Source of the DNA: Lepidurus packardi
Lineage: Eukaryota > Arthropoda > Branchiopoda > Notostraca > Triopsidae
Direction of reading: 5' to 3'
Assembly: GCA_023053545.1 (NCBI GenBank)
Contig: JAKZAN010000053.1
Span: forward strand, 331,532-395,531
DNA length: 64,000 bases
Shown here in pieces: positions 48,453 through 63,485 of this stretch. Under the pieces are notes generated by a model, which saw nothing but the letters and a program-made list of their open reading frames with translations, had not been told where the DNA came from and did not search any database. The stretch's first letter is position 1; every line of letters begins with the position of its first letter. The position numbers and the translations under genes were made by a program.

Positions 48453-50051
48453 TTATTTAAGTTTAAACCGTTGGATTTTACCGGTTTCTGTTTTTGGTAA
48501 ATGTTCTACAAAATTGATTATTCTTGGATATTTATAAGGAGCAGCATTCGTTTTGAACCACGATTGCATATTGATAATCAACTCGTCGCAGGCTTTTGAA
48601 TGGTCTTTTAGCACCACATGCGCACACACTAGCATGCCACGATCTTCATCTGGAACGCCAACTACAGCACATTCTGAAATATCTTCATGCATCAATAAGA
48701 CACTTTCAACTTCAATTGCGCCAATATTATATCCTGAAGAAATAATCATGTCATCACCGCGCGCTACAAAGTAATAAAATCCATCTTCGTCTTTCCTGAA
48801 AATATCACCTGTTATATTCCATCCATTTTCGACATATTCCATTTGCTTTTCGAGGCGGTTTAAGTACTTGCAACCAGTAATCCCGCGAACAGCGAGCCTG
48901 CCCGGTTCGTTTGGTGGTACTTCAATTCCTTTGCTGTCTATAATTTTCGCCTCGTATCCAAAAACAGGCTTTCCTGTCGCGCCCACTTTTATATGCTCGT
49001 CATTTGATGCAATAAAAATATGCAACATTTCGGTCGAACCAATTCCATCAATAATCTTAATCCCAGTGGCTGCATACCAATCTTGCCAAACTTTTACAGG
49101 CAAATGTTCTCCGGCAGAAATGCATTTCCGAAGAGAAGATATGTCGAATTCTTTTGCCTTCGATGTAATAACGCGCCAAGCGGTTGGAGCCGTAAAGCAA
49201 ATTGTAATTTTGTAATCTTGAATGGCTTGCAGCAATAATTCAGGAGTGGGCTTTTCAATTAGAAAACTCGATGCACCATAATATAAAGGAAATAAAACCA
49301 AACCACCTAAACCAAATGTGAAGCCCAAAGGCGGACTACCTATAAAAATATCTGCTGGAATCGGCTGTAATGAATAGGCTGGGAATGCTTTGCAAATCAA
49401 CATTAGATCGCGGTGGTAATGCGCTGTCATTTTTGGATTACCTGTTGTGCCAGATGTAAATCCAATTAAACAAACTTGGTCAGCGTTTGCTTGATAATTG
49501 TCAAATGTTTTTGGTTTGTTGTGCATCAAAACTTCTAGCTTCGAAGTACCTTCTCCTGAACCATCAAATGTTATTTTATGCCGAATAAAATCAGATTTAA
49601 CCAGAGCCATTTCTGTTTCCAAACGGTAGTCGCACAACAAATGAGAAATTTCAGCGCATTCAACCATTGTTTTTAGTTCCTTCTCGCGCAGCAAAGGCAT
49701 CGTAGCCACCACAATTCCGCCTGCTTTGATAATGGCAAACCAGCAAGCAACCATCATGGGGTTGTTTGCAGATCGGATTAGAACACGATTACCGGGTTGT
49801 AAATTCAAATCATCAACTAAAACGTGCGCGATTTGGTTGGATGTTTCAAAAAGTTGCTGGTAAGTCCAAGTTTGCGTAAACGTTCGCAACGCAACTGCAA
49901 GCCCGCGTCCATTAGTGATGTGGTCATCCAGCAATCGGGTCGCACAATTAGACATATTTTCCAATTGAAATTCCTCTGGCGCTATATAATCGGCCTGATA
50001 TTCCAAAGGCGGCAAGTGGTCGTGTGCAAAGTTGTCAGCGTACTTCTGCAT
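48453..50051 (-). CDS. Aryl-CoA ligase (salicylate/2-aminobenzoate-CoA ligase type)
   Basis: 532 aa ANL-superfamily enzyme. Motifs: LIGFTSGTTGNPKMTAHYHRD (P-loop, about residue 185), the A5-type GIGSTEMLHIFIAS, TGDIFRKDEDGFYYFVARGDDMIISSGYNIG and the terminal catalytic Lys in TETGKIQRFKLK. The benzoate-CoA-ligase-like EYQADYIAPEEFQLENMSNCATRLLDDH start places it near 2-aminobenzoate- and benzoate-CoA ligases. It would activate the aromatic acid as CoA thioester, using ATP, before 5-hydroxylation. Whether salicylate or anthranilate is preferred cannot be read, but the downstream gentisate genes favour salicylate. Confidence 0.9.
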   Translation of the reverse strand: MQKYADNFAHDHLPPLEYQADYIAPEEFQLENMSNCATRLLDDHITNGRGLAVALRTFTQTWTYQQLFETSNQIAHVLVDDLNLQPGNRVLIRSANNPMMVACWFAIIKAGGIVVATMPLLREKELKTMVECAEISHLLCDYRLETEMALVKSDFIRHKITFDGSGEGTSKLEVLMHNKPKTFDNYQANADQVCLIGFTSGTTGNPKMTAHYHRDLMLICKAFPAYSLQPIPADIFIGSPPLGFTFGLGGLVLFPLYYGASSFLIEKPTPELLLQAIQDYKITICFTAPTAWRVITSKAKEFDISSLRKCISAGEHLPVKVWQDWYAATGIKIIDGIGSTEMLHIFIASNDEHIKVGATGKPVFGYEAKIIDSKGIEVPPNEPGRLAVRGITGCKYLNRLEKQMEYVENGWNITGDIFRKDEDGFYYFVARGDDMIISSGYNIGAIEVESVLLMHEDISECAVVGVPDEDRGMLVCAHVVLKDHSKACDELIINMQSWFKTNAAPYKYPRIINFVEHLPKTETGKIQRFKLK

Positions 50052-50053
50052 GA

Positions 50054-52351
50054 TTATCTTTTTTTATGTGATTCCGGCTTCAGCGCACGTTTCATACCTT
50101 CTTTTTCCTTTCTTTCGGCCATTTTTGTAGGGTATAAATGTGCTGTGCCCGCAAAATATGGTTTCGGAATATCAGTCGGTTTGAATTGCTCGTAAGCTTG
50201 CGCATTTCGCACAAAACCAGGATCGAGTAGGAGCGGACGACCCAAAGCCACTAGATCTGCACGACCATTTAAGAGGATTGTATTGATTTGATCTATGTCG
50301 GAGATTGACCCGGAGGTAATTGTAGGCACATCGGCACAATTTCGAACCATATCAGAAAAAGGTGTTTGCCACATTCTACCAAAATGCGGTTTCTGGTTTT
50401 GAACCGTAAACCCAGTGGAAACAGAAATTATATCAGCGCCAGCTGCTTTAAACGCTTTAGAAATCTCCAAAACATCTTCCTGTGAAATGCCATTTTCCGC
50501 CCAATCTGTTGCTGAAATTCTAACGGAAATTGGTTTATCCGGAGGCCAAACAGTCCGAATTGCATCGAAAACTTGAAGCGGAAAACGCAGTCTGTTTTCT
50601 AAATTACCACCGTATTCATCCGTTCTAATGTTTGTGAGCGGTGATAAAAATGACGCTATCAAAAAGCCATGATGTGCTTGCAATTCTATCATATCAAATC
50701 CAGCTTGCTCAGCGTTTAATGCCGCTTGCACAAAATCTGAAATGACGGCAATCATGTCGGTAACTGACATTTCTGTTGGTATTTGCGAATCTTCTGAAAA
50801 GGGAATTGCCGAAGCAGAAATTAGCGGCCAGCCATGTTGTAATGGTTTATGACTGCCATTCCAAGGTGATTCAATAGCGCCTTTGCGACCTGCATGGCCT
50901 ATTTGTATGGCTATTTTTGACGCACTGTTTTGGTGTATAAAATCAGTGACACGTTTCCACGCATCTATCTGATTTTGACGTGCTATAGATGGGCAACCTA
51001 AAGTTATTTTACCACTATCTGAAACAGCGACAGCTTCAGTAATAATAAGTCCGCATCCGCCAATTGCCCTAGTGCCATAATGAACCAAATGCCAATCATT
51101 TACGATTCCATCAACGGCATTGTATTGCTCCATAGGTGCGAGAACGATTCTATTTTGCAGTTCTAAGCCACGCATTTTAAACCTTGAAAAAGCTGGCGGT
51201 GTTGTCGCCGCTTCGTTCTGAATCTCATTAAATTCAGTCAATACTTTCTGGGTAAACTGCTTGTCACGCAGCGCAAGGTTTTCGTAAGTAACTTTCTTGG
51301 CGCGTGTCATGACAGAGAAGGCAAATTGCATGAACGGATGATCAATATACCGGTCCATATTTTCGAACCAATCTAATGAAACCGATGCAGCATGCTGAAT
51401 CATTTCAACTCGTGCACGTCTAGTTTTCTCATATTGTTCAAAGGCTGCTTCACGGTTTTCGGGGTTTGCAATAATGGCATCGGCCAAACCAATTGCACAT
51501 TCCATTGCAAGTTTAGTCCCTGAACCAATCGAATAATGCGCTGTTGCCTTCGCATCGCCTAATAAAACAATATTATTATGATGCCACTTTTCATTCGTAA
51601 TCGTCGGGAACTGACGCCAATGCGATTTGTTTGAAATCAGCGGATGACCATCTAATTCATTTTCAAACAATGCTGATAACTTTTCCATGCTATCAGATTC
51701 GTTTGTAGTTTCGAAGCCCGCTTTATCCCATGTTTCAGGCGTACATTCAAAAATCCACGTGCTCATCCCTTCTTGAAATTGGTAAGAATGTGCGACAATA
51801 GTGCCGTATTCGGTTGTTCTAAAGAAGTAAGCAAAAGCATCCAAAGGTTTCGTCGAGCCAAGCCACACGAACTTATTGCGCTGCAGTTTGATTTTCGTGC
51901 CAAAATCTGCCTGAAATTCAGATCGTATTGCACTATTTAACCCGTCACAAGCAACAATAATGTCCGCATCGGAAAACCGACTTAAATCAGAAATATCTTG
52001 TTCAAAATGAAGCCCAACGCCTTCTTCGGAACATCGTTGTTGAAGCAACTGCAGCAATGTTTTGCGCGAGCAACCGCAAAATCCGTTTCCTGTAATCCGA
52101 GCCGTTTCACCATTTCTAACAACGTCGAGGTCGTCCCAGTATGCAAATTTGCTTCGGATTAAATCATACGATTGTGGATCACGGTTTAGAAATTCGCTTA
52201 ATGTTTCATCCGAAAAAACAACGCCAAAACCAAAAGCGTCATCTGCTTTATTTCGTTCATAAATATCAACCTGAAAATCTGGTCTCGCTTTTTTAAGCAG
52301 TATAGAAAAATACAAACCACCAGGACCACCGCCAATTATTGTTACTTTCAT
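50054..52351 (-). CDS. Bifunctional salicylyl-CoA 5-hydroxylase / Old Yellow Enzyme-type oxidoreductase
   Basis: 765 aa, the same length as bacterial proteins of this fused family. The N-terminal half (about 1-375) is a class A FAD monooxygenase: IIGGGPGGLYFSILLKKA, the DG motif IIVACDGLNSAIRSEF and GD motif IVLLGDAKATAHYSIGSGTK. The C-terminal half (about 390-750) is an Old Yellow Enzyme barrel: LAPMEQYNAVDGIVNDWHLVHYGTRAIGG, IQIGHAGRKG, SFLSPLTNIRTDEYGGNLENR. The fold is known from 2-aminobenzoyl-CoA monooxygenase/reductase and salicylyl-CoA 5-hydroxylase. Here residue 563 is Phe (HHGFL) where OYE proteins usually have the proton-donor Tyr, so the reductase half may be altered. It would hydroxylate salicylyl-CoA to gentisyl-CoA. 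Confidence 0.9.
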   Translation of the reverse strand: MKVTIIGGGPGGLYFSILLKKARPDFQVDIYERNKADDAFGFGVVFSDETLSEFLNRDPQSYDLIRSKFAYWDDLDVVRNGETARITGNGFCGCSRKTLLQLLQQRCSEEGVGLHFEQDISDLSRFSDADIIVACDGLNSAIRSEFQADFGTKIKLQRNKFVWLGSTKPLDAFAYFFRTTEYGTIVAHSYQFQEGMSTWIFECTPETWDKAGFETTNESDSMEKLSALFENELDGHPLISNKSHWRQFPTITNEKWHHNNIVLLGDAKATAHYSIGSGTKLAMECAIGLADAIIANPENREAAFEQYEKTRRARVEMIQHAASVSLDWFENMDRYIDHPFMQFAFSVMTRAKKVTYENLALRDKQFTQKVLTEFNEIQNEAATTPPAFSRFKMRGLELQNRIVLAPMEQYNAVDGIVNDWHLVHYGTRAIGGCGLIITEAVAVSDSGKITLGCPSIARQNQIDAWKRVTDFIHQNSASKIAIQIGHAGRKGAIESPWNGSHKPLQHGWPLISASAIPFSEDSQIPTEMSVTDMIAVISDFVQAALNAEQAGFDMIELQAHHGFLIASFLSPLTNIRTDEYGGNLENRLRFPLQVFDAIRTVWPPDKPISVRISATDWAENGISQEDVLEISKAFKAAGADIISVSTGFTVQNQKPHFGRMWQTPFSDMVRNCADVPTITSGSISDIDQINTILLNGRADLVALGRPLLLDPGFVRNAQAYEQFKPTDIPKPYFAGTAHLYPTKMAERKEKEGMKRALKPESHKKR

Positions 52352-52372
52352 ATTATATACAGCATTGCTGTT

Positions 52373-52978
52373 CTACGTTCTTTTTATACTAAATATCTCG
52401 CCCAATTTTGCATAGTTCGAACCTGCAAGGCGTGCAACAGGTTTGTATATTTCTGGATTAAGCTTGAAATCGTCTGATAACAAACCGTCGGCAACATGAA
52501 ACATCACGATTTTGCCTACAATCATGACCGCACCGCCGTACTTATGATTTTCGACTGCGTAATGATGCACCATTTTACATTCAAAATGTATGGGTGATTC
52601 ATCAACGCGGAATGGTTTAACTATTGTCGAGGCTATCGGCGTTAGACCTGCTAATTCAAACTCATTAATATCAGCTGCAACAGACTGCGCAGTATCATTC
52701 ATTTGTGCCACGTTTTCTTCAGTAACGATATTGACCACAAACTCACCATTTGCCATTATGTTGTTCAACGTGTCCTTTGCCGTCCCGTTGTTCGTGACCA
52801 TCGAAAACATCACGTGTGGCGGATCGTCTGCAATTACATTAAAGTACGAAAAAGGGGCGAGATTTGAAATTCCGTTGCGATCAATGGAAGAGATCCATCC
52901 TATGGGTCTGGGAATTACAGCGCCGGTCAATAGCTTGTAAATATTCTTTTGCTCGAGCGAATTTGGATCGTACTGCAT
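52373..52978 (-). CDS. Flavin reductase family protein
   Basis: 201 aa from the ATG at 52976-52978 (MQYDPNSLEQKNIYKLLTGAVIPRPIGWISS); the longer reading from 53014 adds a hydrophobic stretch out of keeping with the family. The flavin_Reduct split-barrel motifs ISNLAPFSYFNVIADDPPHVMFSM and GEFVVNIVTEENVAQMN are present. This subfamily (DUF447-like, FMN-binding) often accompanies aromatic hydroxylases. It is the first gene of the operon and could supply reduced flavin or carry out an auxiliary reduction. It is divergent from acsA over about 110 bases. An imperfect -7 box (TTTATTTG) lies about 15 bases upstream. Confidence 0.85.
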   Translation of the reverse strand: MQYDPNSLEQKNIYKLLTGAVIPRPIGWISSIDRNGISNLAPFSYFNVIADDPPHVMFSMVTNNGTAKDTLNNIMANGEFVVNIVTEENVAQMNDTAQSVAADINEFELAGLTPIASTIVKPFRVDESPIHFECKMVHHYAVENHKYGGAVMIVGKIVMFHVADGLLSDDFKLNPEIYKPVARLAGSNYAKLGEIFSIKRT

Positions 52979-53059
52979 GTTGCTTGTTTCTACAAATAAA
53001 AGAAAAAAAATCAAAAGCAGTTTGTGTTGGTTGTGTATTATTCGATTAGGCTTTATTCT

Positions 53060-53067
53060 TACCTTTG
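53060..53067 (+). promoter_or_regulatory. -7 promoter box of acsA
   Basis: TACCTTTG matches TAnnTTTG and lies 21 bases before the acsA ATG at 53088. TTG at 53031-53033 is 26 bases upstream, slightly beyond the usual spacing. Confidence 0.5.
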
Positions 53068-53087
53068 AATGCTTAAGAAGCCAGTAT

Positions 53088-54995
53088 ATGAGTTACTACA
53101 AAATTGAAAGTTTAGAACATTACTTTAAAATGTATAAAAAGTCCATCCGTGAACCTCGAAAATTCTGGGGTAAAATAGCGGAGGAAAATTTTACTTGGTA
53201 CCAACAATGGGTTAAAGTAATGGAGTTTGATATGGCAGAAGCGGACGTAAAATGGTTTACCAACGCCAAAGTAAACATCGTTAAAAATTGCATCGACAGG
53301 CATTTGGCCAAACGCGGCAATAAAACGGCTATTATTTTCGAACCGAATGACCCAAATGAAGCTGCGCTGCATATTTCTTATAACGAATTGTATGTTCGTG
53401 TTGCCAAGATGGCCAACGTTCTGCGCGGACAAGGGATTAAGAAAGGCGACCGGGTTTGCATCTACTTGCCAATGATACCTGAATTGGCCGTGGCCGTTCT
53501 CGCCTGTGCCAGAATAGGCGCTATTCATTCGGTTGTTTTTGCTGGTTTTTCTGCTTCGGCGGTAGCGGCTCGCATCAACGATTCTGAATGCAAAATGGTG
53601 ATTACTTCCGATGGTGGATTTAGAGGCAATAAAACAATCGATTTGAAAGGTATTGTTGATGAAGCTTTGGAACAATGTCCTTCTGTTGACTCAGTCTTGG
53701 TGGCCAAAAGAACAAATGAAGCAATCACAATGAAGGATGGTCGCGATCATTGGTTGCAACCGCTATTGGATGCTGCTTTTGAAAATAATGTCGCCGAAAT
53801 CATGGATGCTGAAGATCCGTTATTCATTTTGTATACTTCTGGATCAACGGGAAAACCAAAAGGAATGGTGCACACAACAGCAGGTTATATGGTTTATACA
53901 GCCTACACGTTTCAGAATATATTCAGTTATGAGGAGAACGACGTTTTCTGGTGTACGGCCGATATTGGTTGGATTACTGGCCATTCTTATATATTATATG
54001 GGCCGTTGCTGAATGGCGCCACAACCGTTATTTTTGAAGGTGTTCCGTCATATCCTGATTTCAGTCGCTTTTGGGAGGTAATCGAAAAGCACGGCGTAAC
54101 ACAGTTTTATACCGCGCCAACAGCAATTCGGTCGCTCGCAAAAGAAAGCATTGATTATGTGCAACGTTTTCCGCTGAAATCTCTGAAAGTAATTGGCTCC
54201 GTTGGCGAACCAATAAACGAAGAAGCTTGGCATTGGTACAATGATCACGTTGGTGGAAAGCGCTGTCCATTGGTAGATACTTGGTGGCAAACGGAAACAG
54301 GCGGCATTATGATTTCACCAATTCCTTTCGTTACGCCCACGAAACCTACATACGCATCATTGCCACTGCCAGGAATTCAACCCGTGCTGATGGACGAACT
54401 TCGAAACGAAATTGAAGGCAATCAGGTGACTGGAAGTTTGTGCATAAAATTTCCATGGCCGGCAATTGCACGAACAATTTGGGGTGACCACCAACGTTAT
54501 AAGGAGACCTATTTTACAGCTTTCCCTGGAAAATACTTCACAGGCGATGGCGCATTGCGTGACGAAGTTGGCTACTACAGAATTACAGGTAGGGTAGATG
54601 ACGTTATTATCGTTTCGGGGCACAACCTTGGTACGGCTCCAATTGAAGACATTATAAATGAGCATCCAGCTGTTGCAGAAAGTGCAATCGTCGGATTTCC
54701 ACATGACATCAAAGGGAACGCTCTCTACGGCTTTGTGATTTTGAAGGATAGCGGCGAAAGTCGCGACAGAAGCAACTTATCTAAAGAAATTAACCAATTG
54801 ATTTCAGATCAAGTTGGGCCAATAGCAAAGTTGGATAAAATTCAATTCGTTTCAGGCTTGCCCAAAACACGTTCTGGAAAAATCATGCGTCGAATTTTGC
54901 GAAAGATTGCCGAAGGCGATTTTTCGAGTTTTGGAGACACCAGCACCTTGCTTAATCCAGAAATTGTGGACGAAATAACGGAAGGGAAAATTTAG
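53088..54995 (+). CDS. acsA: Acetyl-CoA synthetase
   Basis: 635 aa from the ATG at 53088 (MSYYKIESLEHYFKMYKKSIREPRKFWGKIAEENFTWYQQW); the -7 box at 53060 excludes the earlier in-frame ATG at 52977. It makes acetyl-CoA from acetate, ATP and CoA. Motifs: FAGFSASAVAARINDSECKMVITSDGGFRGNK, P-loop ILYTSGSTGKPKGMVHT, VDTWWQTETGGIMISP and the C-terminal TRSGKIMRRILRKIAEGD with the acetylation-regulated Lys. The Trp of the acetate pocket (WWQTETG) is intact, supporting a short-chain substrate. It is divergent from the catabolic operon, which produces pyruvate and fumarate rather than acetate, so a functional link is not certain. Confidence 0.95.
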   Translation: MSYYKIESLEHYFKMYKKSIREPRKFWGKIAEENFTWYQQWVKVMEFDMAEADVKWFTNAKVNIVKNCIDRHLAKRGNKTAIIFEPNDPNEAALHISYNELYVRVAKMANVLRGQGIKKGDRVCIYLPMIPELAVAVLACARIGAIHSVVFAGFSASAVAARINDSECKMVITSDGGFRGNKTIDLKGIVDEALEQCPSVDSVLVAKRTNEAITMKDGRDHWLQPLLDAAFENNVAEIMDAEDPLFILYTSGSTGKPKGMVHTTAGYMVYTAYTFQNIFSYEENDVFWCTADIGWITGHSYILYGPLLNGATTVIFEGVPSYPDFSRFWEVIEKHGVTQFYTAPTAIRSLAKESIDYVQRFPLKSLKVIGSVGEPINEEAWHWYNDHVGGKRCPLVDTWWQTETGGIMISPIPFVTPTKPTYASLPLPGIQPVLMDELRNEIEGNQVTGSLCIKFPWPAIARTIWGDHQRYKETYFTAFPGKYFTGDGALRDEVGYYRITGRVDDVIIVSGHNLGTAPIEDIINEHPAVAESAIVGFPHDIKGNALYGFVILKDSGESRDRSNLSKEINQLISDQVGPIAKLDKIQFVSGLPKTRSGKIMRRILRKIAEGDFSSFGDTSTLLNPEIVDEITEGKI

Positions 54996-55055: not shown

Positions 55056-56171
55056 ATGACACAATCAGATCTTCTAATTTTGGGCGGTGGGCTTTCTGGT
55101 TTAATTGCGGCAATCCACACTGCAAAAGCAGGCTATTCTGTTACAGTTATCGAAAAAAATACTTTTCCGCGTCACAAAGTTTGCGGCGAATATATTTCAA
55201 ATGAGGTCCTTTTCTACCTTGATTCATTGGATATCGATTGGCGAGGATTGAGACCGCAAACAATCTCGGCAACTTCCATATCAATAAATAATGGGGCCGA
55301 AATTAGTGCTGCTTTGCCGCTTGGTGGTTTCGGCATTAGTAGGTACAAGCTCGACAATTATTTGTTTGAAAAGGCTACATCTTTAGGTGTCAATTTCGAA
55401 TTTGATACGGTTATATCCGTAGAATATAAGAATCATTTTATTGCCATTACAAAATCTGGAAAGCATTTCGAATCTGGTCTGGCTTTTGCCGCCTTTGGAA
55501 AACGCTCTAATTTAGATCAGAAATTAAACCGAAAATTCTTCAATAGTAAATCGCCTTGGCTAGGCGTCAAAGCACATTACACAGGAAATATACCAAATGA
55601 TGTCGTGCAACTGCATAATTTTCCGGGTGGCTATTGTGGTGTTTCTCGAGTTGAAAACGACGTAATCAATATTTGCTATTTGGCGAATTATAAAATGTTT
55701 AAGCAGCATAAAAATATAGCTGAATTTCAAAATGCAGTATTGTTTAAAAACCCAAAACTCAAGTCGATTTTAGAAAATTGCAACCCATTATTTGAACCAA
55801 TTGCCATCAGCCAGATTTCGTTTGAGCCGAAGAAAGCGGTCGAAAATCACGTTCTGATGATTGGTGATGCGGCAGGATTAATTCATCCTTTGTGCGGCAA
55901 TGGCATGGCAATGGCAATTCACAGTGCCAAAATTGCTTCGGAGTTGGCTGTGCACTTCTTTACAAATAAAATTGCTAACTTAGAAGAATTGGAAAGGGCA
56001 TATCAAAAGCAATGGAAACGCTGTTTTGCAAAACGATTATTTTTTGGTCGCCTTTTATCAAAAATACTGGAAAATCAAAAAATGGCAGCGATTGTAATGA
56101 AAGTACTAATCCGATTTCCAAAAATACTGCCCATTCTTATAAAGCAGACTCATGGATCACCTATTATATGA
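55056..56171 (+). CDS. FAD-dependent oxidoreductase (geranylgeranyl-reductase-like) of the type III PKS operon
   Basis: 371 aa. Dinucleotide-binding motif LLILGGGLSGLIAAIHTAKAGYSVTVIEK, then FPRHKVCGEYISNEV, typical of geranylgeranyl-reductase-like and some hydroxylase flavoproteins, and the second FAD motif MIGDAAGLIHPLCGNGMAMAIHSAKIASELA. A hydrophobic C-terminal stretch (AAIVMKVLIRFPKILPILI) may contact the membrane. It could reduce a polyketide chain or hydroxylate the aromatic ring, as SrsC-type flavoproteins do in alkylresorcinol-quinone clusters. It is the first gene of the operon, 60 bases after acsA. The next gene overlaps it by 4 bases (ATGA). Confidence 0.85.
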   Translation: MTQSDLLILGGGLSGLIAAIHTAKAGYSVTVIEKNTFPRHKVCGEYISNEVLFYLDSLDIDWRGLRPQTISATSISINNGAEISAALPLGGFGISRYKLDNYLFEKATSLGVNFEFDTVISVEYKNHFIAITKSGKHFESGLAFAAFGKRSNLDQKLNRKFFNSKSPWLGVKAHYTGNIPNDVVQLHNFPGGYCGVSRVENDVINICYLANYKMFKQHKNIAEFQNAVLFKNPKLKSILENCNPLFEPIAISQISFEPKKAVENHVLMIGDAAGLIHPLCGNGMAMAIHSAKIASELAVHFFTNKIANLEELERAYQKQWKRCFAKRLFFGRLLSKILENQKMAAIVMKVLIRFPKILPILIKQTHGSPII

Positions 56172-56884
56172 CTATGATTAGTATAAAAAACAGAACAAAT
56201 GCCTCCGAAATCATGGACGATTTTGCGTTAGAAGGTCAGATGCTTCAAGATGCTTTGGATCAAATAGCGACAATCAACCAAATTTTAGGCGGAAATGCAC
56301 TAACTATTGCAGGTGTCAAAAAATTATTAGGCAGCAAACATAAAAACACCACAATCACCATCCTGGATATTGGTTGCGGAAACGGTGATATGTTGCGTGC
56401 ATTGGCGAATTTCGGGCAGAAGTACCATTATAATTTTAAGTTAATCGGAATTGATGCCAACGAATTTACCGTGAACTACGGCCAATCAAAATCCGCAGCC
56501 TACGAAAATATTAGCTTTCAATGTATGGATATATTTAGCGAAGCGTATGCAAAACTTGAAGCCGATATCGTATTGTGCACACTGACTTTACACCATTTTA
56601 AAGATGATGAAATTGAAAAACTGCTTGGTGTGCTATACAAACAATCGCGGATTGGCATTGTTATTAATGATTTGCACCGCAGTATGATTGCATACCGACT
56701 TTTTCAAGTTGCGAGTAAAATTTTGGGCATGAACCAAATGGGGATCGACGATGGCTTGATTTCGATTTTAAGAGGATTTAGAAGAAATGAGCTTGAGCAA
56801 TTTGCCCTCAAAATGAAATTAAACAAATACCAAATTCAATGGCGCTGGGCGTTTCGTTACCAGTGGATTATATATAAAATATGA
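56168..56884 (+). CDS. SAM-dependent methyltransferase of the type III PKS operon
   Basis: 238 aa from the ATG at 56168, which overlaps the flavoprotein stop codon as ATGA; the longer in-frame reading from 56012 would overlap that gene by 160 bases and is rejected. Class I methyltransferase: motif I ILDIGCGNGDMLRALA, motif II IDANEFTVNYGQ, and LCTLTLHHFKDDEI as post-motif. C- or O-methylation of a phenolic product is likely. The C-terminal RWAFRYQWIIYKI is common to methyltransferases in such Bacteroidetes clusters. The PKS start codon overlaps its stop codon. Confidence 0.88.
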   Translation: MTMISIKNRTNASEIMDDFALEGQMLQDALDQIATINQILGGNALTIAGVKKLLGSKHKNTTITILDIGCGNGDMLRALANFGQKYHYNFKLIGIDANEFTVNYGQSKSAAYENISFQCMDIFSEAYAKLEADIVLCTLTLHHFKDDEIEKLLGVLYKQSRIGIVINDLHRSMIAYRLFQVASKILGMNQMGIDDGLISILRGFRRNELEQFALKMKLNKYQIQWRWAFRYQWIIYKI

Positions 56885-57933
56885 GTGTAAAAGTTATATC
56901 AGTCGCAAAGCAATTGCCGAAATATTCGAAAAAAACGAGTGAGATTTTGCCTTTTCTCGACACATGGTTACAGGGCCAAGATGCACGTTTTGTTCGCAAA
57001 GTAAAAATGATTTTTGAAGGTGCTGCAGTCGACAAAAGATACTCGATTATGGAACCTACCGAAGTTTTTACGCGTACTACTTTCGCAGAAAGAAATGCAA
57101 TTTATGCCCGGGAGGTTACCGAATTAGGGAAGTTGGTTCTAGAAAAATCCCTTGCGCAAGCAAATTGGAAACCAACAGATATCGATTACATCATCACGGT
57201 GAGTTGCACCGGAATTATGATTCCGTCGCTTGATGCATATCTAATCAATTCGTTGAAAATGAAACAAGACGTTGTTCGTTTGCCTGTAACCGAAATGGGT
57301 TGTGCGGCAGGAATTTCTGGCATGATATACGCTAAAAACTTTTTGAAGGCAAATCCTGGAAAGCGTGCAGCGGTCATTGCGGTCGAATCGCCCGCAGCAA
57401 CCTTTCAGTTGGATGATTTTTCGATGCCGAATATTGTTAGTGCTGCCATTTTTGGGGATGGTGCGGCCTGTGTTCTAATGTCGTCTGACGAGCGTGATGA
57501 AGGCCCAAAAATGGTTGCAGAAGAAATGTATCATTTTTATGACGCTGAGCACATGATGGGCTTTGAACTAACAAATTCCGGATTGAAAATGGTTTTAGAC
57601 ATCGAAGTGCCGGATACAATTGCAAACCATTTTCCGCAAATCATCAACCCATTTTTAGATAAAAATAAGTGCGAAATTGCAGATATTGATTACTTAATCT
57701 TTCACCCCGGCGGGAAAAAAATTGTGCAAACAGTTGAAGCGTTATTTGCTGGAATGGGCAAGAATATCGACCATACTAAAGAAGTCTTGCGACTTTATGG
57801 CAACATGTCGAGCGCAACTGTTTTGTATGTTTTGGAACGTGTTTTGGCAGAAAAGCCTAAAGCGGGCGAGAAAGGATTGATGTTGAGCTTTGGACCAGGG
57901 TTTTCTGCACAACGGATTTTATTGGAATGGTAA
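56881..57933 (+). CDS. Type III polyketide synthase (chalcone/stilbene synthase family)
   Basis: 350 aa, normal length. The catalytic triad is intact: Cys141 (TEMGCAAGISG), His275 (IFHPGGKKIV) and Asn308 (RLYGNMSSATVLYVL). The terminal loop reads SFGPGFSAQ, close to the family's GFGPG. Type III PKSs extend an acyl-CoA or acyl-ACP starter with malonyl-CoA and cyclise the chain to resorcinols, pyrones or phloroglucinols. Because the operon encodes its own ACP, ketosynthase and dehydratase, the starter is probably a custom fatty acyl chain handed over directly. Start and stop codons overlap with the neighbours on both sides (ATGA and TAATG). Confidence 0.93.
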   Translation: MSVKVISVAKQLPKYSKKTSEILPFLDTWLQGQDARFVRKVKMIFEGAAVDKRYSIMEPTEVFTRTTFAERNAIYAREVTELGKLVLEKSLAQANWKPTDIDYIITVSCTGIMIPSLDAYLINSLKMKQDVVRLPVTEMGCAAGISGMIYAKNFLKANPGKRAAVIAVESPAATFQLDDFSMPNIVSAAIFGDGAACVLMSSDERDEGPKMVAEEMYHFYDAEHMMGFELTNSGLKMVLDIEVPDTIANHFPQIINPFLDKNKCEIADIDYLIFHPGGKKIVQTVEALFAGMGKNIDHTKEVLRLYGNMSSATVLYVLERVLAEKPKAGEKGLMLSFGPGFSAQRILLEW

Positions 57934-58370
57934 TGGAACAGTACAAGTATATCGTAGAGCGTTTACCGTATGGCGACAGTTTTCGGTTTGTTGATGCCAT
58001 CACAAAAGCAACAGAAACGGTTTTTGAAGGACGCTTTTTGTTTCGAGATGATTTGGCATTTTATGAAAGTCATTTCAAAGGAAATCCTGTAACGCCAGGT
58101 GTTATTTTAACGGAGTGCATGGCGCAGATTGGGGTTGTTTGCTTTGGAATTTACTTGTTGGGAAGCCAGTATTCTGCTGCTAATGGTTTTGTTATGACCG
58201 AATCCAATATTGAGTTTTTGAAGCCAGTATTCCCAAATGAGGTGGTTTCGGTTGTGTCTGAGAAAATTTACTGGCGATTTGGCAAACTAAAATGTAAAGT
58301 TTCAATGTTTAATCAGGATGGTATACTAGTTTGTTCGGGTATCATTGCTGGAATGATCTTAAAAAGATGA
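57933..58370 (+). CDS. FabZ-like 3-hydroxyacyl-ACP dehydratase of the type III PKS operon
   Basis: 145 aa from the ATG at 57933 that overlaps the PKS stop codon (TAATG); an ATG two codons earlier (57927) is equally possible. Hotdog fold with the FabZ/FabA active site: catalytic His47 (ESHFKGNPVTPGVI) and Glu61 (LTECMAQIGVV). It would remove water from a 3-hydroxyacyl-ACP to form the 2-enoyl chain. No ketoreductase gene is in the operon, so that step must come from housekeeping FabG. The ketosynthase start overlaps its stop codon. Confidence 0.88.
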   Translation: MEQYKYIVERLPYGDSFRFVDAITKATETVFEGRFLFRDDLAFYESHFKGNPVTPGVILTECMAQIGVVCFGIYLLGSQYSAANGFVMTESNIEFLKPVFPNEVVSVVSEKIYWRFGKLKCKVSMFNQDGILVCSGIIAGMILKR

Positions 58371-59644
58371 AAAGAAGGGTCGTAATTACTGGTTTAGGCG
58401 TTGTTGCGCCAAATGGTGTGGGGCTTCCAGCATTTTTAGAAGCCATAAAATCGGGTAGAAGCGGGGTGACTTTTGATGAGCAGCTTGCTAATTTGAAATT
58501 TTCCTGCCAAATTTCTGCTAAACCAAAGCTTTCAGATGAATTAATCACGCAATACATGAGCGCGTTAGAATTACGAAATTTCAATTCTACTGGCATTTTG
58601 TATGGCATAATCGCTGGTATTGATGCTTGGAATGATGCAGGACTATCCGCGATTAAAACCGAAGAACCAGATTGGAATAGCGGCTGTATTTTTGGAACAG
58701 GCACCTCCGGAATTGAAAAATTTCGTGAAAGTATATACAAGATTGACCAATGTGAAACCCGAAAATTGGGCAGCACGGCTGTTATACAGACCATGAATAG
58801 CGGTATCAGCGCCTACTTGGGAGGCAAACTTGGATTGGGGAATCAGGTAACAACCAATTCTTCTGCGTGCACAACTGGAACTGAAAGCATTTTAATGGCA
58901 TATGATCGGATTGTTGCCGGTCGAGCCGAACGCATTTTGGCCGGCAGTACAAGTGATTCCGGTCCGTATATTTGGGGTGGTTTTGATGCGATGAAAGTAT
59001 GTACTTTCAAGCACAATGACAATCCCACTGCAGGATCGCGCCCCATGAGCGCCACATCGTCAGGATTTGTGCCGGGCAGTGGTGCGGGAGCATTTGTTAT
59101 TGAAAGTTTGGAAAGTGCCTTGTTGCGTGGTGCAAAGATTTACTGCGAAATTTTGGGCGGCAACATCAATTCTGGTGGACAATGTGGCGAAGGAACGATG
59201 ACTGCGCCCAATTCGGTTGCAGTGCAGCGCTGCATTACCGATGCGCTGCGAGATGCGGGCATTTCGGCTGGTGAAATTGACGCAATTAATGGCCATTTAA
59301 CAGCCACTTCAAAAGATGTTTTGGAAATTCAGAACTGGGTTGAGGCATTGGGCCGAAGTGCAGCAGATTTTCCACCTATCAATTCGTTGAAAGGTATGAT
59401 TGGACATTGCTTGTCTGCTGCTGGAAGCATCGAGACGGTTGCGGCAGTATTACAAATTCAGCATAATTTTTTGTTTCCAAATGTGAATTGCGAAGACCTT
59501 AATACGGGAATTTTAGATTTAATTGATTCTGAAAGTATACCAACGCAACTTACTAATAAAGAAGTGCATACGATAATAAAATCCAGTTTTGGATTTGGCG
59601 ATGTGAATGGGTGTTTAATTTTAAGAAAGTATAAGAATGACTGA
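58367..59644 (+). CDS. Beta-ketoacyl-ACP synthase (FabF-like) of the type III PKS operon
   Basis: 425 aa from the ATG at 58367 (ATGA overlap). Catalytic Cys168 in TTNSSACTTGTESI, His310 in INGHLTATSKDV (where most FabF have NAHGTST, so the loop is divergent), and Lys342/His347 in LKGMIGHCLSAAGS. All catalytic residues are therefore present, and it should condense rather than act as a chain-length factor. It probably elongates the dedicated acyl-ACP starter with malonyl-ACP. The ACP gene begins inside its last codons (8-base overlap). Confidence 0.9.
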   Translation: MKRRVVITGLGVVAPNGVGLPAFLEAIKSGRSGVTFDEQLANLKFSCQISAKPKLSDELITQYMSALELRNFNSTGILYGIIAGIDAWNDAGLSAIKTEEPDWNSGCIFGTGTSGIEKFRESIYKIDQCETRKLGSTAVIQTMNSGISAYLGGKLGLGNQVTTNSSACTTGTESILMAYDRIVAGRAERILAGSTSDSGPYIWGGFDAMKVCTFKHNDNPTAGSRPMSATSSGFVPGSGAGAFVIESLESALLRGAKIYCEILGGNINSGGQCGEGTMTAPNSVAVQRCITDALRDAGISAGEIDAINGHLTATSKDVLEIQNWVEALGRSAADFPPINSLKGMIGHCLSAAGSIETVAAVLQIQHNFLFPNVNCEDLNTGILDLIDSESIPTQLTNKEVHTIIKSSFGFGDVNGCLILRKYKND

Positions 59645-59891
59645 ACAAGAAACGACAGAAAAACTGCAAACAATTATTAAGCCTTATGTAAAAAATCAGG
59701 TTGCTTTTGATGTTTTGGATGATGAAACGAGTTTTATTGATGACTTGCAGATTAATTCGGCGAATTTAGTTGATATTATTCTGGACATCGAAGATGCGTT
59801 TGGGATTATCATTGATAATGAATCGATGGAGCGCATGCTAAACGTGGCTGCTGCCAAAGCGATTATTGCGCAGAAACTAGCCGAAAAATGA
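59637..59891 (+). CDS. Acyl carrier protein of the type III PKS operon
   Basis: 84 aa. The phosphopantetheine attachment site is Ser41 in DLQINSANLVDIILDIEDAFGI. The INSANL context differs from the DSLD of the fatty-acid ACP and matches what I recall of ACPs in other Bacteroidetes aryl-polyene and resorcinol clusters. The protein is acidic in helix II, as expected for partner binding. It overlaps the ketosynthase by 8 bases and the PPTase gene by 4 bases. Confidence 0.92.
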   Translation: MTEQETTEKLQTIIKPYVKNQVAFDVLDDETSFIDDLQINSANLVDIILDIEDAFGIIIDNESMERMLNVAAAKAIIAQKLAEK

Positions 59892-60376
59892 TAGGAAACG
59901 ACGTTGTCGATTTGAAACTAGCTGCGGTGGAGAGCAATCCGTTTCGGCCGCGGTATTTGGATAAGTTATTTGTGCCTTCTGAACAGGCATTTATCCATCA
60001 TTCTGCTAATCCATTCGTGTCGGTTTGGGTTTTGTGGAGCATGAAAGAATCTGCATATAAGGCGCTTAACCGGCTCACAAATTTGAGTGGATATTTTCCT
60101 GTAAAATTAGTTACAGATATACAATTTGTGTCGGATGCCGTTTGTTTAGGTACGATTACATATTTGGATTTTACTTTTTATTGTAGAACCATTATTACGC
60201 CTGAAAAAGTGTATTCTGTGGCTGCAAGTTCAATGGCGATGTTAGCGGAAATTGGGCATATTACTGATAGAAAAGTGTTGTTGAAACGTGGAAACTTGCC
60301 ATTTTATGGCGATTTTCCGGCTTCGGTGACTGATCATGGACGATTTGAAAAGATGATTTATATTGTGCAACCCTAG
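59888..60376 (+). CDS. 4'-phosphopantetheinyl transferase family protein
   Basis: 162 aa, short for the family (Sfp is about 220). The conserved core is present: MIGNDVVDLKLA with the metal-binding Asp and WVLWSMKESAYKAL with the WxxKES motif. It would load the operon's ACP with the 4'-phosphopantetheine arm of CoA. The C-terminus is abrupt: the stop codon TAG is the first three bases of a dispersed intergenic repeat, so the gene may have been trimmed by the repeat. Its first codons overlap the ACP gene (ATGA). Confidence 0.85.
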   Translation: MIGNDVVDLKLAAVESNPFRPRYLDKLFVPSEQAFIHHSANPFVSVWVLWSMKESAYKALNRLTNLSGYFPVKLVTDIQFVSDAVCLGTITYLDFTFYCRTIITPEKVYSVAASSMAMLAEIGHITDRKVLLKRGNLPFYGDFPASVTDHGRFEKMIYIVQP

Positions 60377-60462: not shown

Positions 60463-61059
60463 CTACTTAATTTTTAGCCTTGACTTTAATTTGAGGAAGA
60501 TTAGTGCAAAGTTATAGGCTATTTCGAGGCAGCTTTGTTTTTCGTTTTCGGTGATTTTGAATGCGTTGCAAAGTTCCGTGATGCTGAATTTTTTATCTGT
60601 TCCATCTTGCCATTTTTGCATCATTATTTCCAGATCGAGTGCTTCGTTTTTGATTTTTCCGCACGACATTCTTTCGAGGCCGTTGTTGATTAGTTCGATG
60701 TCTGCATTGATGCGGTGCCCCACTAGAATTGCATTTCCGACATAATCGAGGAAGGCTTCAATTCCTTGAGCTTCAGTCATTTTTGTTGATTTACTTTCGA
60801 TTAAAAATGCGTTTGACATTCCGTTATCGTGTAAGAATTTGTATTGCAACATCACGCAATCGAAGGAGTCGCCAACAAATATTTGGTCGTTCATGATTGA
60901 AATGACGCTGAATCCAAAAATGACATCATTTTCAGGGTTTTGCCCCGAAGTGAGCATTTTTAGCGCTACGAATCGAGCTGGTTTTTTCTCGAATTTAGCC
61001 AAGTATGCCTTGTAAAATTCGGGGTATTCGCGGTTTATGTTTTTTAGCCAGTCGAGCAT
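60463..61059 (-). CDS. DnaQ-like 3'-5' exonuclease-fold protein without the catalytic acidic residues
   Basis: 198 aa. It begins MLDWLKNINREYPEFYKAYL, typical of flavobacterial PolC-epsilon-like exonucleases that accompany DUF294 proteins. The ExoI motif, usually VxDTETTG, reads FVALKMLTSG, so Lys34 and Leu36 replace the metal-binding Asp and Glu. ExoII is partly kept (LVGHRINADIELI, with Asp), but ExoIII lacks the His-x4-Asp (SCLEIAYNFALIF). The protein is therefore predicted to keep the fold and lose nuclease activity. It starts 1 base after the DUF294 gene and is probably cotranscribed with it. Confidence 0.75.
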   Translation of the reverse strand: MLDWLKNINREYPEFYKAYLAKFEKKPARFVALKMLTSGQNPENDVIFGFSVISIMNDQIFVGDSFDCVMLQYKFLHDNGMSNAFLIESKSTKMTEAQGIEAFLDYVGNAILVGHRINADIELINNGLERMSCGKIKNEALDLEIMMQKWQDGTDKKFSITELCNAFKITENEKQSCLEIAYNFALIFLKLKSRLKIK

Positions 61060-61060
61060 G

Positions 61061-62968
61061 TTATGAGAATTGTGTGAGTCGGAATCTGCCTTTAATAATT
61101 TCTTCCATTTCGCGCATTGGTGCGAATGCGTTTTTTAGTTTTTCGCGGTCGTTTTTAGACAATTCCGTGATGTTGATGTATTGACCGGAATTGTCGTTTT
61201 TTAGGCCTTCGATAGTTCTAAATTTTGATAGCACTAAGAACGCCTCTGCACAATTTAGATAGACTTCGGCATTTCTTGGTTCCTTCATTGCGAGTTGTTT
61301 GAATCGCATCCAAGTATTGTTGACGCCGCGAATGTTGTGGCTCAGTATTAGCATTCGTGCGCTGTCGACCAACGGCAAAATTGCTTTTGTTTTAATGTCA
61401 AATTTATCTCTGTTTTCGCCATCTTCTTCGACATTAAAGTTTTTAAAGAAGGTGAGTGGTGCGGCTCTCTTTAAGGTTTCATTGCCGAGATAATCGAAGA
61501 AAAGCGTTTGTTTTTTGAGGTCGGTAAAGATTATATTAAGCATTGCTTCCTCGATTGCTGGCTCACCGTATACGAGGTCAATATCGAAAAATATCGAGGC
61601 AATTTCCTTGTTTTCCCGTGGATTATTGATCCAGCTTGCGTATTGATTTGACCAGTCTGTGAAGGATTTGCACCAGATCATGTTGCTTGCCACGTGCCCG
61701 TTTGGACATGACGCGTAGCCCACTAGCTCTAATGTTGCAGTGGTTTTTTTAGCCAAACGCAGGAAATAATTTTTAACGTCTCGGTATTTTTCCGGTGCTA
61801 CATCTTCGAAAACCAAAATGCTGTCTTGATCTGTTTGCAAGAGCTGTTCCTTTCGGCCTTGGCTTCCCATACTGAACCAGCCAAAAGCGGCAGGAGGGGA
61901 GCCTAATTCTAGAATTGCCAGTTCGATTGCGCGTATTAATAGCGCTGCATTAATCTCGCTTGCGATGTTGTTTATGTGCGGTAGGGGAATATTTTTTGTG
62001 ATCGAGGTTTGCACTAGATCGGTTACTTTATTGCGAACATTGTTGAGTTCTGCTGCTGTTTTTGCGCGTTTCACTGCTTTTATGAGCACGCCCGGATTGC
62101 TGGCCTGCGCCATAATCAGGTCCCTTTGCGAGATGATTCCTTTAATTGTGGAGCGGTCTGATCCATCTTCGGTTACACAGAGGTGACTGATGTTGTGGGT
62201 TAGCATCAATAGCTGCGCCTCTGCAAGTGAGACACTTTCGCTGACAGTAACAACAGGTGAAGTCATTATTCTTTCCACGGGAGCAGTTAAAGGAAACCTT
62301 CCAGTTGCAATTTTAGCTCGCAAATCGGAGTCGGTCACCAATCCGACAGGCGCATTATTTCTTGCAATTATGACATTATCGATAACGTTTTCTGTCATAA
62401 GAAGTGCAATATCTTGTGCGATTGCTGCAGTATCTGCTAGAAGCGGTGTTTTATTAAAGGCTAACGATTGAAAATATTGAATTTCAGCTGGTTGTTCGTG
62501 GTATACGACATTTTCTGAAAGCAAAGTTCCGCGCTTTTGATCGTCTGGATTGCTTGTGTTCGTTGCAAAACTTTCTAAAAGAAAGTCCAATACTTGCGGA
62601 TTTCTGGCAACAAACGGTTTGAAAATATCGATTGGGATGGCGTATACAACACTTTCTTCGCGTGCTTTAGCCGTCATTTTATAGTTGTTTTTCGCAAAAA
62701 AGGGACGTAGACCGAAGATATCGCCAGGTTTGCATTTGTTGAGCAATGTTTCTTCGGCATCAGAAATTACCGAAAGATGCACATTTCCTGAGGCTACAAC
62801 ATAAAAACTATCATGAAGTGCATCATTAATTTGGAATAGCACTTTGTATTTTTCCAAATTAACCACCCGAATATTTTTAGAAATTTCAGCTAAATCATCA
62901 AAATGAAGATAATTGAATGGCTGATATTCTTTTAAGAAAAGGGCAATGCGTTCTGCAATAATGCTCAT
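61061..62968 (-). CDS. cNMP-binding/CBS/DUF294 putative nucleotidyltransferase
   Basis: 635 aa from the ATG at 62966-62968 (MSIIAERIALFLKEYQPF); the longer frame from 63037 starts with an untypical Cys-rich stretch. Domains in order: cyclic-nucleotide-binding-like (about 15-125, GDIFGLRPFFAKNNY), a CBS pair (about 175-300, LVTDSDLRAKIATGRFP and ISQRDLIMAQ), the DUF294 nucleotidyltransferase domain (about 330-470, WFSMGSQGRKEQLLQTDQDSILVFED, a GSx12DxD signature), and a DUF294 C-terminal helical domain. Proteins of this build are thought to be ligand-gated nucleotidyltransferases, sometimes called UTP-GlnB-like. Its standard partner in Flavobacteria is the exonuclease-fold gene directly downstream. 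Confidence 0.88.
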   Translation of the reverse strand: MSIIAERIALFLKEYQPFNYLHFDDLAEISKNIRVVNLEKYKVLFQINDALHDSFYVVASGNVHLSVISDAEETLLNKCKPGDIFGLRPFFAKNNYKMTAKAREESVVYAIPIDIFKPFVARNPQVLDFLLESFATNTSNPDDQKRGTLLSENVVYHEQPAEIQYFQSLAFNKTPLLADTAAIAQDIALLMTENVIDNVIIARNNAPVGLVTDSDLRAKIATGRFPLTAPVERIMTSPVVTVSESVSLAEAQLLMLTHNISHLCVTEDGSDRSTIKGIISQRDLIMAQASNPGVLIKAVKRAKTAAELNNVRNKVTDLVQTSITKNIPLPHINNIASEINAALLIRAIELAILELGSPPAAFGWFSMGSQGRKEQLLQTDQDSILVFEDVAPEKYRDVKNYFLRLAKKTTATLELVGYASCPNGHVASNMIWCKSFTDWSNQYASWINNPRENKEIASIFFDIDLVYGEPAIEEAMLNIIFTDLKKQTLFFDYLGNETLKRAAPLTFFKNFNVEEDGENRDKFDIKTKAILPLVDSARMLILSHNIRGVNNTWMRFKQLAMKEPRNAEVYLNCAEAFLVLSKFRTIEGLKNDNSGQYINITELSKNDREKLKNAFAPMREMEEIIKGRFRLTQFS

Positions 62969-63485
62969 GTGATTGGGATTGTGTTGTGGATGTAAAAATA
63001 GCTTTAAATAACAAAAAGCGCAACAGATATTTGACATATTCTATTTTACATAATATAAATTATAGGTCAAATAATTACGGGCGTATACTTAGCCATTTGT
63101 CGATGGATTTGCGCAGTTGCACCTGAATAAGCGCTTGTTTGGCGCTAAATCTTTATACTTTAAGAATCTACAGTTGTATAATTACTTGATTTTTAAGAGT
63201 TTTTGGCGATTATTCTCGCAAATAATCAAACTGAAATTTTTAGAAACTTAACATATTTCTTACTATATAATCATTGGCTTGTAATATACTTTTTACAATC
63301 ATGTTAAAAACATGTACTTAATCGATACTTTGGATATTTTAACGAAATTAAATTTCCATTTGTTAGCTGTCTAAATAGATTTGTAATGTTCACTTCAACG
63401 ATTAAAATATGCAATATGTCGACTGCTGCATGCTAATCGAAAACCGAATAAAAAATGATATAACAATACATTATCCAATTTAGTC
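62969..63485. other. 517-base gene-free region with a plus-strand -7 box
   Basis: AT-rich with many stop codons in all frames. It separates the divergent DUF294 gene and the DUF4874-type gene. I see an exact -7 motif TAGATTTG at 63376-63383 on the plus strand, about 100 bases before the next ATG, implying a long leader, and no convincing box for the minus-strand gene. A short GC-richer patch (63106-63150) contains GCGC-type repeats without clear structure. Confidence 0.4.

Follow-up and report, generated by a model that had tools for sequence, protein, structure and literature searches.

The srsABC genes of Streptomyces griseus bring together a type III polyketide synthase (PKS), a methyltransferase (MT) and a flavoprotein, and we know of no acyl carrier protein (ACP) cassette that accompanies them. 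According to the accessible sections of one report, hidABC and 58 planctomycete operons also combine an MT, an oxidoreductase and a type III PKS, the planctomycete PKSs of such operons or variations of them yield alkylresorcinols, and addition of the MT and oxidoreductase of Gimesia maris led to one methylation, probably on carbon (PMC10896814). Starter supply from an ACP is documented in excerpts on the Azotobacter ars genes, where ArsB and ArsC take acyl chains from the ACP of ArsA (PMC6274091), and in a partial text on cylindrocyclophane, where a chain started on CylB is passed to CylI (PMC8086630). Two intermediates of fatty-acid metabolism give rise to dialkylresorcinols, and a β-ketoacyl-ACP synthase (KS; darJ) and an ACP (darC) are listed in the cluster table for Azoarcus, as given in the available part of that study (PMC3949708). 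Type III PKSs account for 9% of Flavobacteriaceae clusters, and the available text of the survey names no product for them (PMC7440613). Here we describe a seven-gene operon with a type III PKS (T3PKS) in a stretch of 64,000 nucleotides (the window) from the Lepidurus packardi assembly GCA_023053545.1, contig JAKZAN010000053.1.

The operon comprises seven intact plus-strand open reading frames (ORFs) at 55056-60376, encoding in order a flavin adenine dinucleotide (FAD) flavoprotein, an MT, the T3PKS, a FabZ-like dehydratase (DH), a FabF-like KS, an ACP and a 4'-phosphopantetheinyl transferase (PPTase). The junctions overlap by 4, 4, 7, 4, 8 and 4 bases, which confirms the run of overlapping genes described in an earlier note made from the DNA letters, and Pfam backs all seven family assignments of that note, the ACP scoring exactly at its PF00550 threshold (20.8 against 20.8 bits). 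For the KS, the ATG at 58367, with its 4-base overlap with the DH stop, was preferred over a longer TTG reading at 58331. The T3PKS, MT and FAD oxidoreductase are contiguous on the same strand, as in hid- and srs-type units. We think it probable that this is a specialised-lipid operon, in which a chain made by KS, DH and ACP would be handed to the T3PKS for ring formation and the ring tailored by the FAD enzyme and the MT.

The catalytic residues of the operon proteins, counted over the window and up to 103 aligned relatives, are almost invariant. The T3PKS has chalcone/stilbene synthase domains and a Cys-His-Asn triad (C141/H275/N308), which define it as a type III PKS; the triad is kept in 104/104 loci and bears out the earlier proposal of Cys141 as nucleophile. 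DH residues H49 and E63 are likewise kept in 104/104 aligned loci, KS C168 in 103/103, with H310, K342 and H347 in 102/103 and one gap, ACP S41 in 101/101 aligned sequences and PPTase D5, D8, E54 and K58 in 93/93. Two further positions of the T3PKS are also fixed in 104/104, namely Pro171, two residues past the Glu169 of a 'VES' motif, and Cys109, which aligns with the Cys of 'SCTG' in structure 1u0m. We take the latter to be the tetrahydroxynaphthalene synthase structure, and Cys109 presumably occupies the position of Thr132 in chalcone synthase. The KS and DH were also considered as housekeeping fatty acid synthase (FAS) genes and rejected, as both score far below the FabF and FabZ equivalog cut-offs (Table 1 for the KS, its catalytic residues nonetheless being kept; 41.6 and 39 bits against 113 and 155.15 in NCBIfam for the DH).

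Operons of this type are common in Flavobacterium. A scan of the genome_contigs set returned 277 T3PKS relatives, and in the best 80 of the 277, mostly named Flavobacterium, the T3PKS is 75-81% identical to that of the window. Among genomes sampled from the genus to which F. xueshanense (G001, locus L003) belongs, nearly half (90/199) carry the T3PKS at E ≤ 1e-100, and some T3PKS at E ≤ 1e-30 occurs in 167 of the 395 genomes of a Bacteroidota phylum sample. The identities in the phylum sample are bimodal among the matches listed, with a clade I of 33 genomes at 65-80% and a clade II at 36% or less. The 104 clade I loci (the window, L003-L082, L114-L116 and L154-L173) have the order FAD-MT-T3PKS-(SDR)-DH-KS-ACP in 101 cases, where SDR is a short-chain dehydrogenase/reductase, and the other three (L031, L040, L066) are cut by contig ends; an order kept so widely points to an operon arrangement beyond chance. 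The PPTase follows and the SDR is absent in 85/104, whereas 16/104 have the additional SDR between T3PKS and DH; the PPTase was not detected in 8/104, all of them SDR-bearing. The base overlaps are not universal, L003 having ∼105 bases between PKS and DH and ∼60 between KS and ACP, as judged from match ends. Hence, the operon is conserved and coherent, and the Bacteroidetes-wide cluster search proposed in the earlier note, which knew of no characterised product, finds it to be frequent in Flavobacterium; our search of the open-licence literature, with subscription journals mostly outside its scope, likewise found no product for this type of operon. One of the truncated loci, L040, lies in a metagenome-assembled genome named Candidatus Nitrotoga and groups with Flavobacterium in the T3PKS tree; this contig is probably misbinned.

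Supply of the PKS by the chain builder is best supported by co-occurrence. KS orthologues (E ≤ 1e-75, only the best candidates per genome being scored, so that counts are a lower bound) are found in at least 38/395 phylum genomes, that is, in all 33 genomes with a clade I T3PKS and in 5 of the other 362. The MT and flavoprotein also stand beside the T3PKS where the cassette was not found, in 10/37 clade II loci, five of these with weak flavoprotein scores, which fits the tailoring role that had been assigned to the two enzymes. Three clade II loci (L131, L134, L135) show an AMP-ligase-like ORF close upstream of the T3PKS, scoring 41-52 bits to the acetate--CoA ligase (acs) model, which is perhaps an alternative starter supply.

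The cassette has other partners as well. Within the order of G101, the KS is present in 80/201 genomes, 58 at 65-71% and 22 at 52-55% identity, compared with 4/128 in the order of G079. Sixteen of the 58 were examined, and FAD-MT-T3PKS was found in 15, one of them (L210) with an SDR; at L200 there is DH-KS-ACP-PPTase alone. All 22 genomes of the more distant group, seen in stretches of 13-17 kb, have SDR-DH-KS-ACP (22/22), with a PPTase in 21/22 and Dar genes in 18/22, so that reductase-DH-KS-ACP adjoins DarB, DarG, DarH and a DarA-like gene in 18/22 genomes of one order, plus G393. The curated Dar models were run on L174 alone, where divergent genes beside the cassette score 634.8 bits for DarB (cut-off 550), 197.4 for DarG (170) and 453.7 for DarH (300); the fourth, which matched no model, we take to be DarA-like. 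The same set at L175 was recognised by similarity to L174. The KS tree of 75 rows separates a T3PKS-linked clade (48 plus L200) from a Dar-linked clade (19 plus four without Dar genes), with support of 100/99 each. Presence of the cassette beside DarB, another resorcinol-forming ketosynthase, fits the role of an acyl-chain supplier. These four further loci of the Dar-linked clade (L179, L181, L183, L196) have SDR-DH-KS-ACP-PPTase and no Dar genes in the fetched stretch. At L176-L178, the (SDR)-DH-KS-ACP cassette lies with GNAT-like and glycosyltransferase 2 (GT2) genes in a lipid-type locus, and the short L216 has the cassette with a GNAT-like gene, GT2 not being seen there.

Given these associations, the pathway can be outlined as follows. 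The PPTase, judging from its family, would arm the ACP, on which KS and DH together with a host ketoreductase would build a defined acyl chain, possibly enoyl or β-ketoacyl; in some relatives an operon-encoded FabL-like enoyl reductase would join in this step. From the ACP (or CoA) the chain would move to Cys141 of the T3PKS, which would extend it with malonyl-CoA and close an aromatic or pyrone ring, to be hydroxylated by the flavoprotein and methylated by the MT. A methylated alkyl- or alkenyl-resorcinol or hydroquinone is the favoured product, with a pyrone as the other candidate. The AlphaFold2 model of the MT (mean predicted local distance difference test score 93.9) has the plantazolicin methyltransferase BpumL as its top Foldseek match, with Coq5, CouO and NovO in further rows, consistent with a tailoring enzyme, and the flavoprotein is probably a ring hydroxylase. 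A flavin-dependent halogenase was considered for the latter and rejected; the motif WxWxIP, a signature of these enzymes, occurs in 0/26 aligned homologues, though the top VIA rows of the fold comparison are halogenases.

Several observations weigh against this outline. No ketoreductase is encoded among the operon genes and no enoyl reductase in the operon of the window, where the FabL-like gene of 16/104 loci is missing and the best SDR of the whole assembly is only 28% identical. The term 'self-contained' of the earlier note is thus too strong, and of its proposal that KS, DH and ACP make the PKS starter, the place of the cassette in the pathway is supported by the 33/33 genomes and the DarB neighbours, while the set for chain building is incomplete without a ketoreductase. 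The T3PKS is closest to an α-pyrone synthase, Mycobacterium tuberculosis Pks11 (its best solved relative, 4jao, E 4.5e-51), and to the model of DpgA (3,5-dihydroxyphenylacetyl-CoA synthase), not to any known resorcinol synthase. Fold comparison is compatible with methylation of more than one kind of atom by the MT and with hydroxylase, halogenase or reductase activity of the flavoprotein, or with families not listed. All five genomes with a KS outside clade I carry a clade II T3PKS elsewhere, the KS being on a different contig or, in G393, 118 kb off; it sits in a DH-KS-ACP unit in all five, with the SDR also in three, and the cassette may therefore serve a distant T3PKS, or other customers, in trans. 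At L200, L179, L181, L183 and L196, the cassette has no ring-forming enzyme in the fetched stretch.

These last loci, together with L176-L178, would suit a KS, DH, ACP and PPTase that act in the synthesis of a separate lipid and share no more than a transcript with the T3PKS triad. We regard this as the least probable of the alternatives, as the KS is present in every clade I T3PKS genome, the KS clade tracks the partner in the tree and the gene order hardly varies. The flow could also run in reverse, the T3PKS making a small aromatic thioester from malonyl-CoA in the manner of DpgA, and KS, DH and ACP extending it to an aryl-polyene-like chain that is then methylated and oxidised. The DpgA model NF042429 is indeed the top NCBIfam match of the T3PKS, but its 174.8 bits are far below the equivalog cut-off of 425, and although the invariant Cys109 is in keeping with this route and double bonds could persist in an operon without enoyl reductase, the reductase in 16/104 operons clashes with a polyene; we therefore find a reversed pathway unlikely. 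A similarly low probability attaches to a two-chain or β-keto route, in which the cassette would supply β-ketoacyl-ACP or enoyl-ACP as in dialkylresorcinol assembly and the PKS would start from an unusual diketide instead of a finished fatty acid. Both the sharing of the cassette with DarB loci and the missing reductase speak for it, but the best DarB score in the assembly of the window is 32 bits against the NF053539 cut-off of 550, in an assembly where the bacterium may be incompletely represented. On balance, the direction from KS, DH and ACP to the T3PKS, as proposed in the earlier note, is the one we favour, as the probable one.

The reductase found in some relatives bears on the nature of the chain. 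The three extra SDRs tested have enoyl-ACP reductase FabL (NF005975) as top NCBIfam model, at 140-151 bits and below the cut-off of 328, and the SDR of L162 has 3oic as its closest solved structure (E 5.9e-27). The SDR lies mostly in deep branches of the T3PKS tree and is patchy above. The tree does not show a single loss, as it needs 6 changes of the SDR label, at least 2 of them forced by supported branches, with many forks weak under the quick method used. When 22 clade I genomes were searched with the SDR of G200, it was recovered in G200 itself only, with SDRs of 32-33% identity in six and no match at E ≤ 1e-20 in the other 15. In the lineage of the window, the chain would thus stay unsaturated or be reduced by a general enzyme.

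The simplest account of these distributions is a chain-building cassette with a varying customer, which has the look of a mobile module providing acyl-ACP to ring-forming enzymes of different kinds. More tentatively, we propose as a possibility that Bacteroidota have a portable type II cassette for acyl-ACP, made up of FabL-like reductase, DH, KS, ACP and PPTase, with at least three end-stations, namely the type III PKS, the DarB dialkylresorcinol-type system and the GNAT/glycosyltransferase lipid locus. At the first of these, direct transfer of a custom chain from ACP to Cys141 would constitute a polyketide line of hybrid type II/type III character, and in Flavobacterium the chain would be retuned where the reductase is lost. 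The shared cassette makes the product of flavobacterial 'T3PKS' clusters directly testable, and the loci with and without reductase, and with T3PKS or DarB as partner, form a natural series for how discrete ACPs feed ring-forming ketosynthases.

Table 1. Genes of the operon and the flanking acs gene, with model scores
Feature	Position	Strand	Model score
acetate--CoA ligase acs (flanking)	53088..54995 (start picked within ORF 52977-54995)	+	TIGR02188 933.9 bits (cut-off 724.95)
FAD flavoprotein, p-hydroxybenzoate-hydroxylase fold	55056..56171	+	
class I S-adenosylmethionine (SAM) methyltransferase (MT)	56168..56884	+	Pfam Methyltransf_25 51.4 bits; NCBIfam PRK06202 138 bits (cut-off 243)
type III PKS (T3PKS), C141/H275/N308	56881..57933	+	Pfam Chal_sti_synt_N and Chal_sti_synt_C
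FabZ-like hot-dog dehydratase (DH), H49/E63	57927..58370	+	PF07977 40.3 bits
FabF-like β-ketoacyl-ACP synthase (KS), C168/H310/K342/H347	58367..59644	+	TIGR03150 267 bits (cut-off 493.75)
acyl carrier protein (ACP), pantetheine site S41	59637..59891	+	PF00550 20.8 bits
4'-phosphopantetheinyl transferase (PPTase)	59888..60376	+	PF01648 39.9 bits

The window is part of a contig of at least 395 kb (C42) in an assembly of 108.6 Mb in 344 contigs (G000), which is beyond bacterial size; KS-like matches on another contig of more than 11 Mb (C5) are fragmented. Probably, the contig of the window is from a bacterial companion or contaminant within a eukaryote assembly. In a plasmid search, every record was below 60% identity (155/155). 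The upstream acs was considered as a pathway member and rejected, since its model score marks it as a standard acetate--CoA ligase and it is found at >70% identity in 49 of the 80 named loci, mostly upstream of the operon, some loci being short contigs. Behind the operon (60463-63037), minus-strand ORFs of 198 and 658 amino acids have relatives in 55/103 loci each and no NCBIfam match at E ≤ 1e-20; we take them to be an exonuclease and a CBS/nucleotidyltransferase protein, respectively. The partial presence of acs and of these neighbours means that the operon stands out from its surroundings. Further minus-strand genes at 48453-53014 encode a benzoate-CoA-ligase-like protein (321.4 bits, cut-off 375.25) and, at 999 bits against a cut-off of 1078, a fusion resembling salicylyl-CoA 5-hydroxylase/oxidoreductase. 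Together they may form a catabolic unit for aryl-CoA compounds, for which anthranilate would presumably be an example substrate.

How does the operon compare with the known systems? The earlier note drew its parallel to srsABC only; these genes are not known to include an ACP module, but ACP-fed type III PKSs are known, from ArsA to ArsB/ArsC and from the Cyl proteins to CylI. Precedent for the MT-oxidoreductase-T3PKS logic was likewise understated. As far as the accessible text of the two sources describes them, hidABC (hierridins, cyanobacteria) and the planctomycete operons likewise place a T3PKS, a SAM-dependent MT and an FAD oxidoreductase in one operon with (methylated) alkylresorcinols as products (PMC10896814, PMC8086630); compared by description and not by alignment, they differ in being three-gene units without KS, DH, ACP and PPTase and in gene order. 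The excerpts on ars (ArsA FAS with ArsB/ArsC) and Cyl (CylB/D/H with CylI) show the kind of dedicated transfer of an ACP-bound chain to a type III PKS that is proposed here, and CylI is the fourth-ranked solved match of the window T3PKS (E 1.2e-38). Their chain is made by a type I FAS or PKS, whereas the window operon has no large multidomain ORF and uses discrete, FASII-like KS, DH and ACP proteins with their own PPTase. The homologous reductase-DH-KS-ACP(-PPTase) cassette of dialkylresorcinol/flexirubin-type loci (DarB, DarG, DarH, DarA-like) stands alongside a different ring-former, DarB instead of a type III PKS. Compared with these systems, the operon is a variant that couples a tailoring triad of the hid/srs kind with a type II acyl-ACP cassette, relatives of which are found at dialkylresorcinol-type loci.

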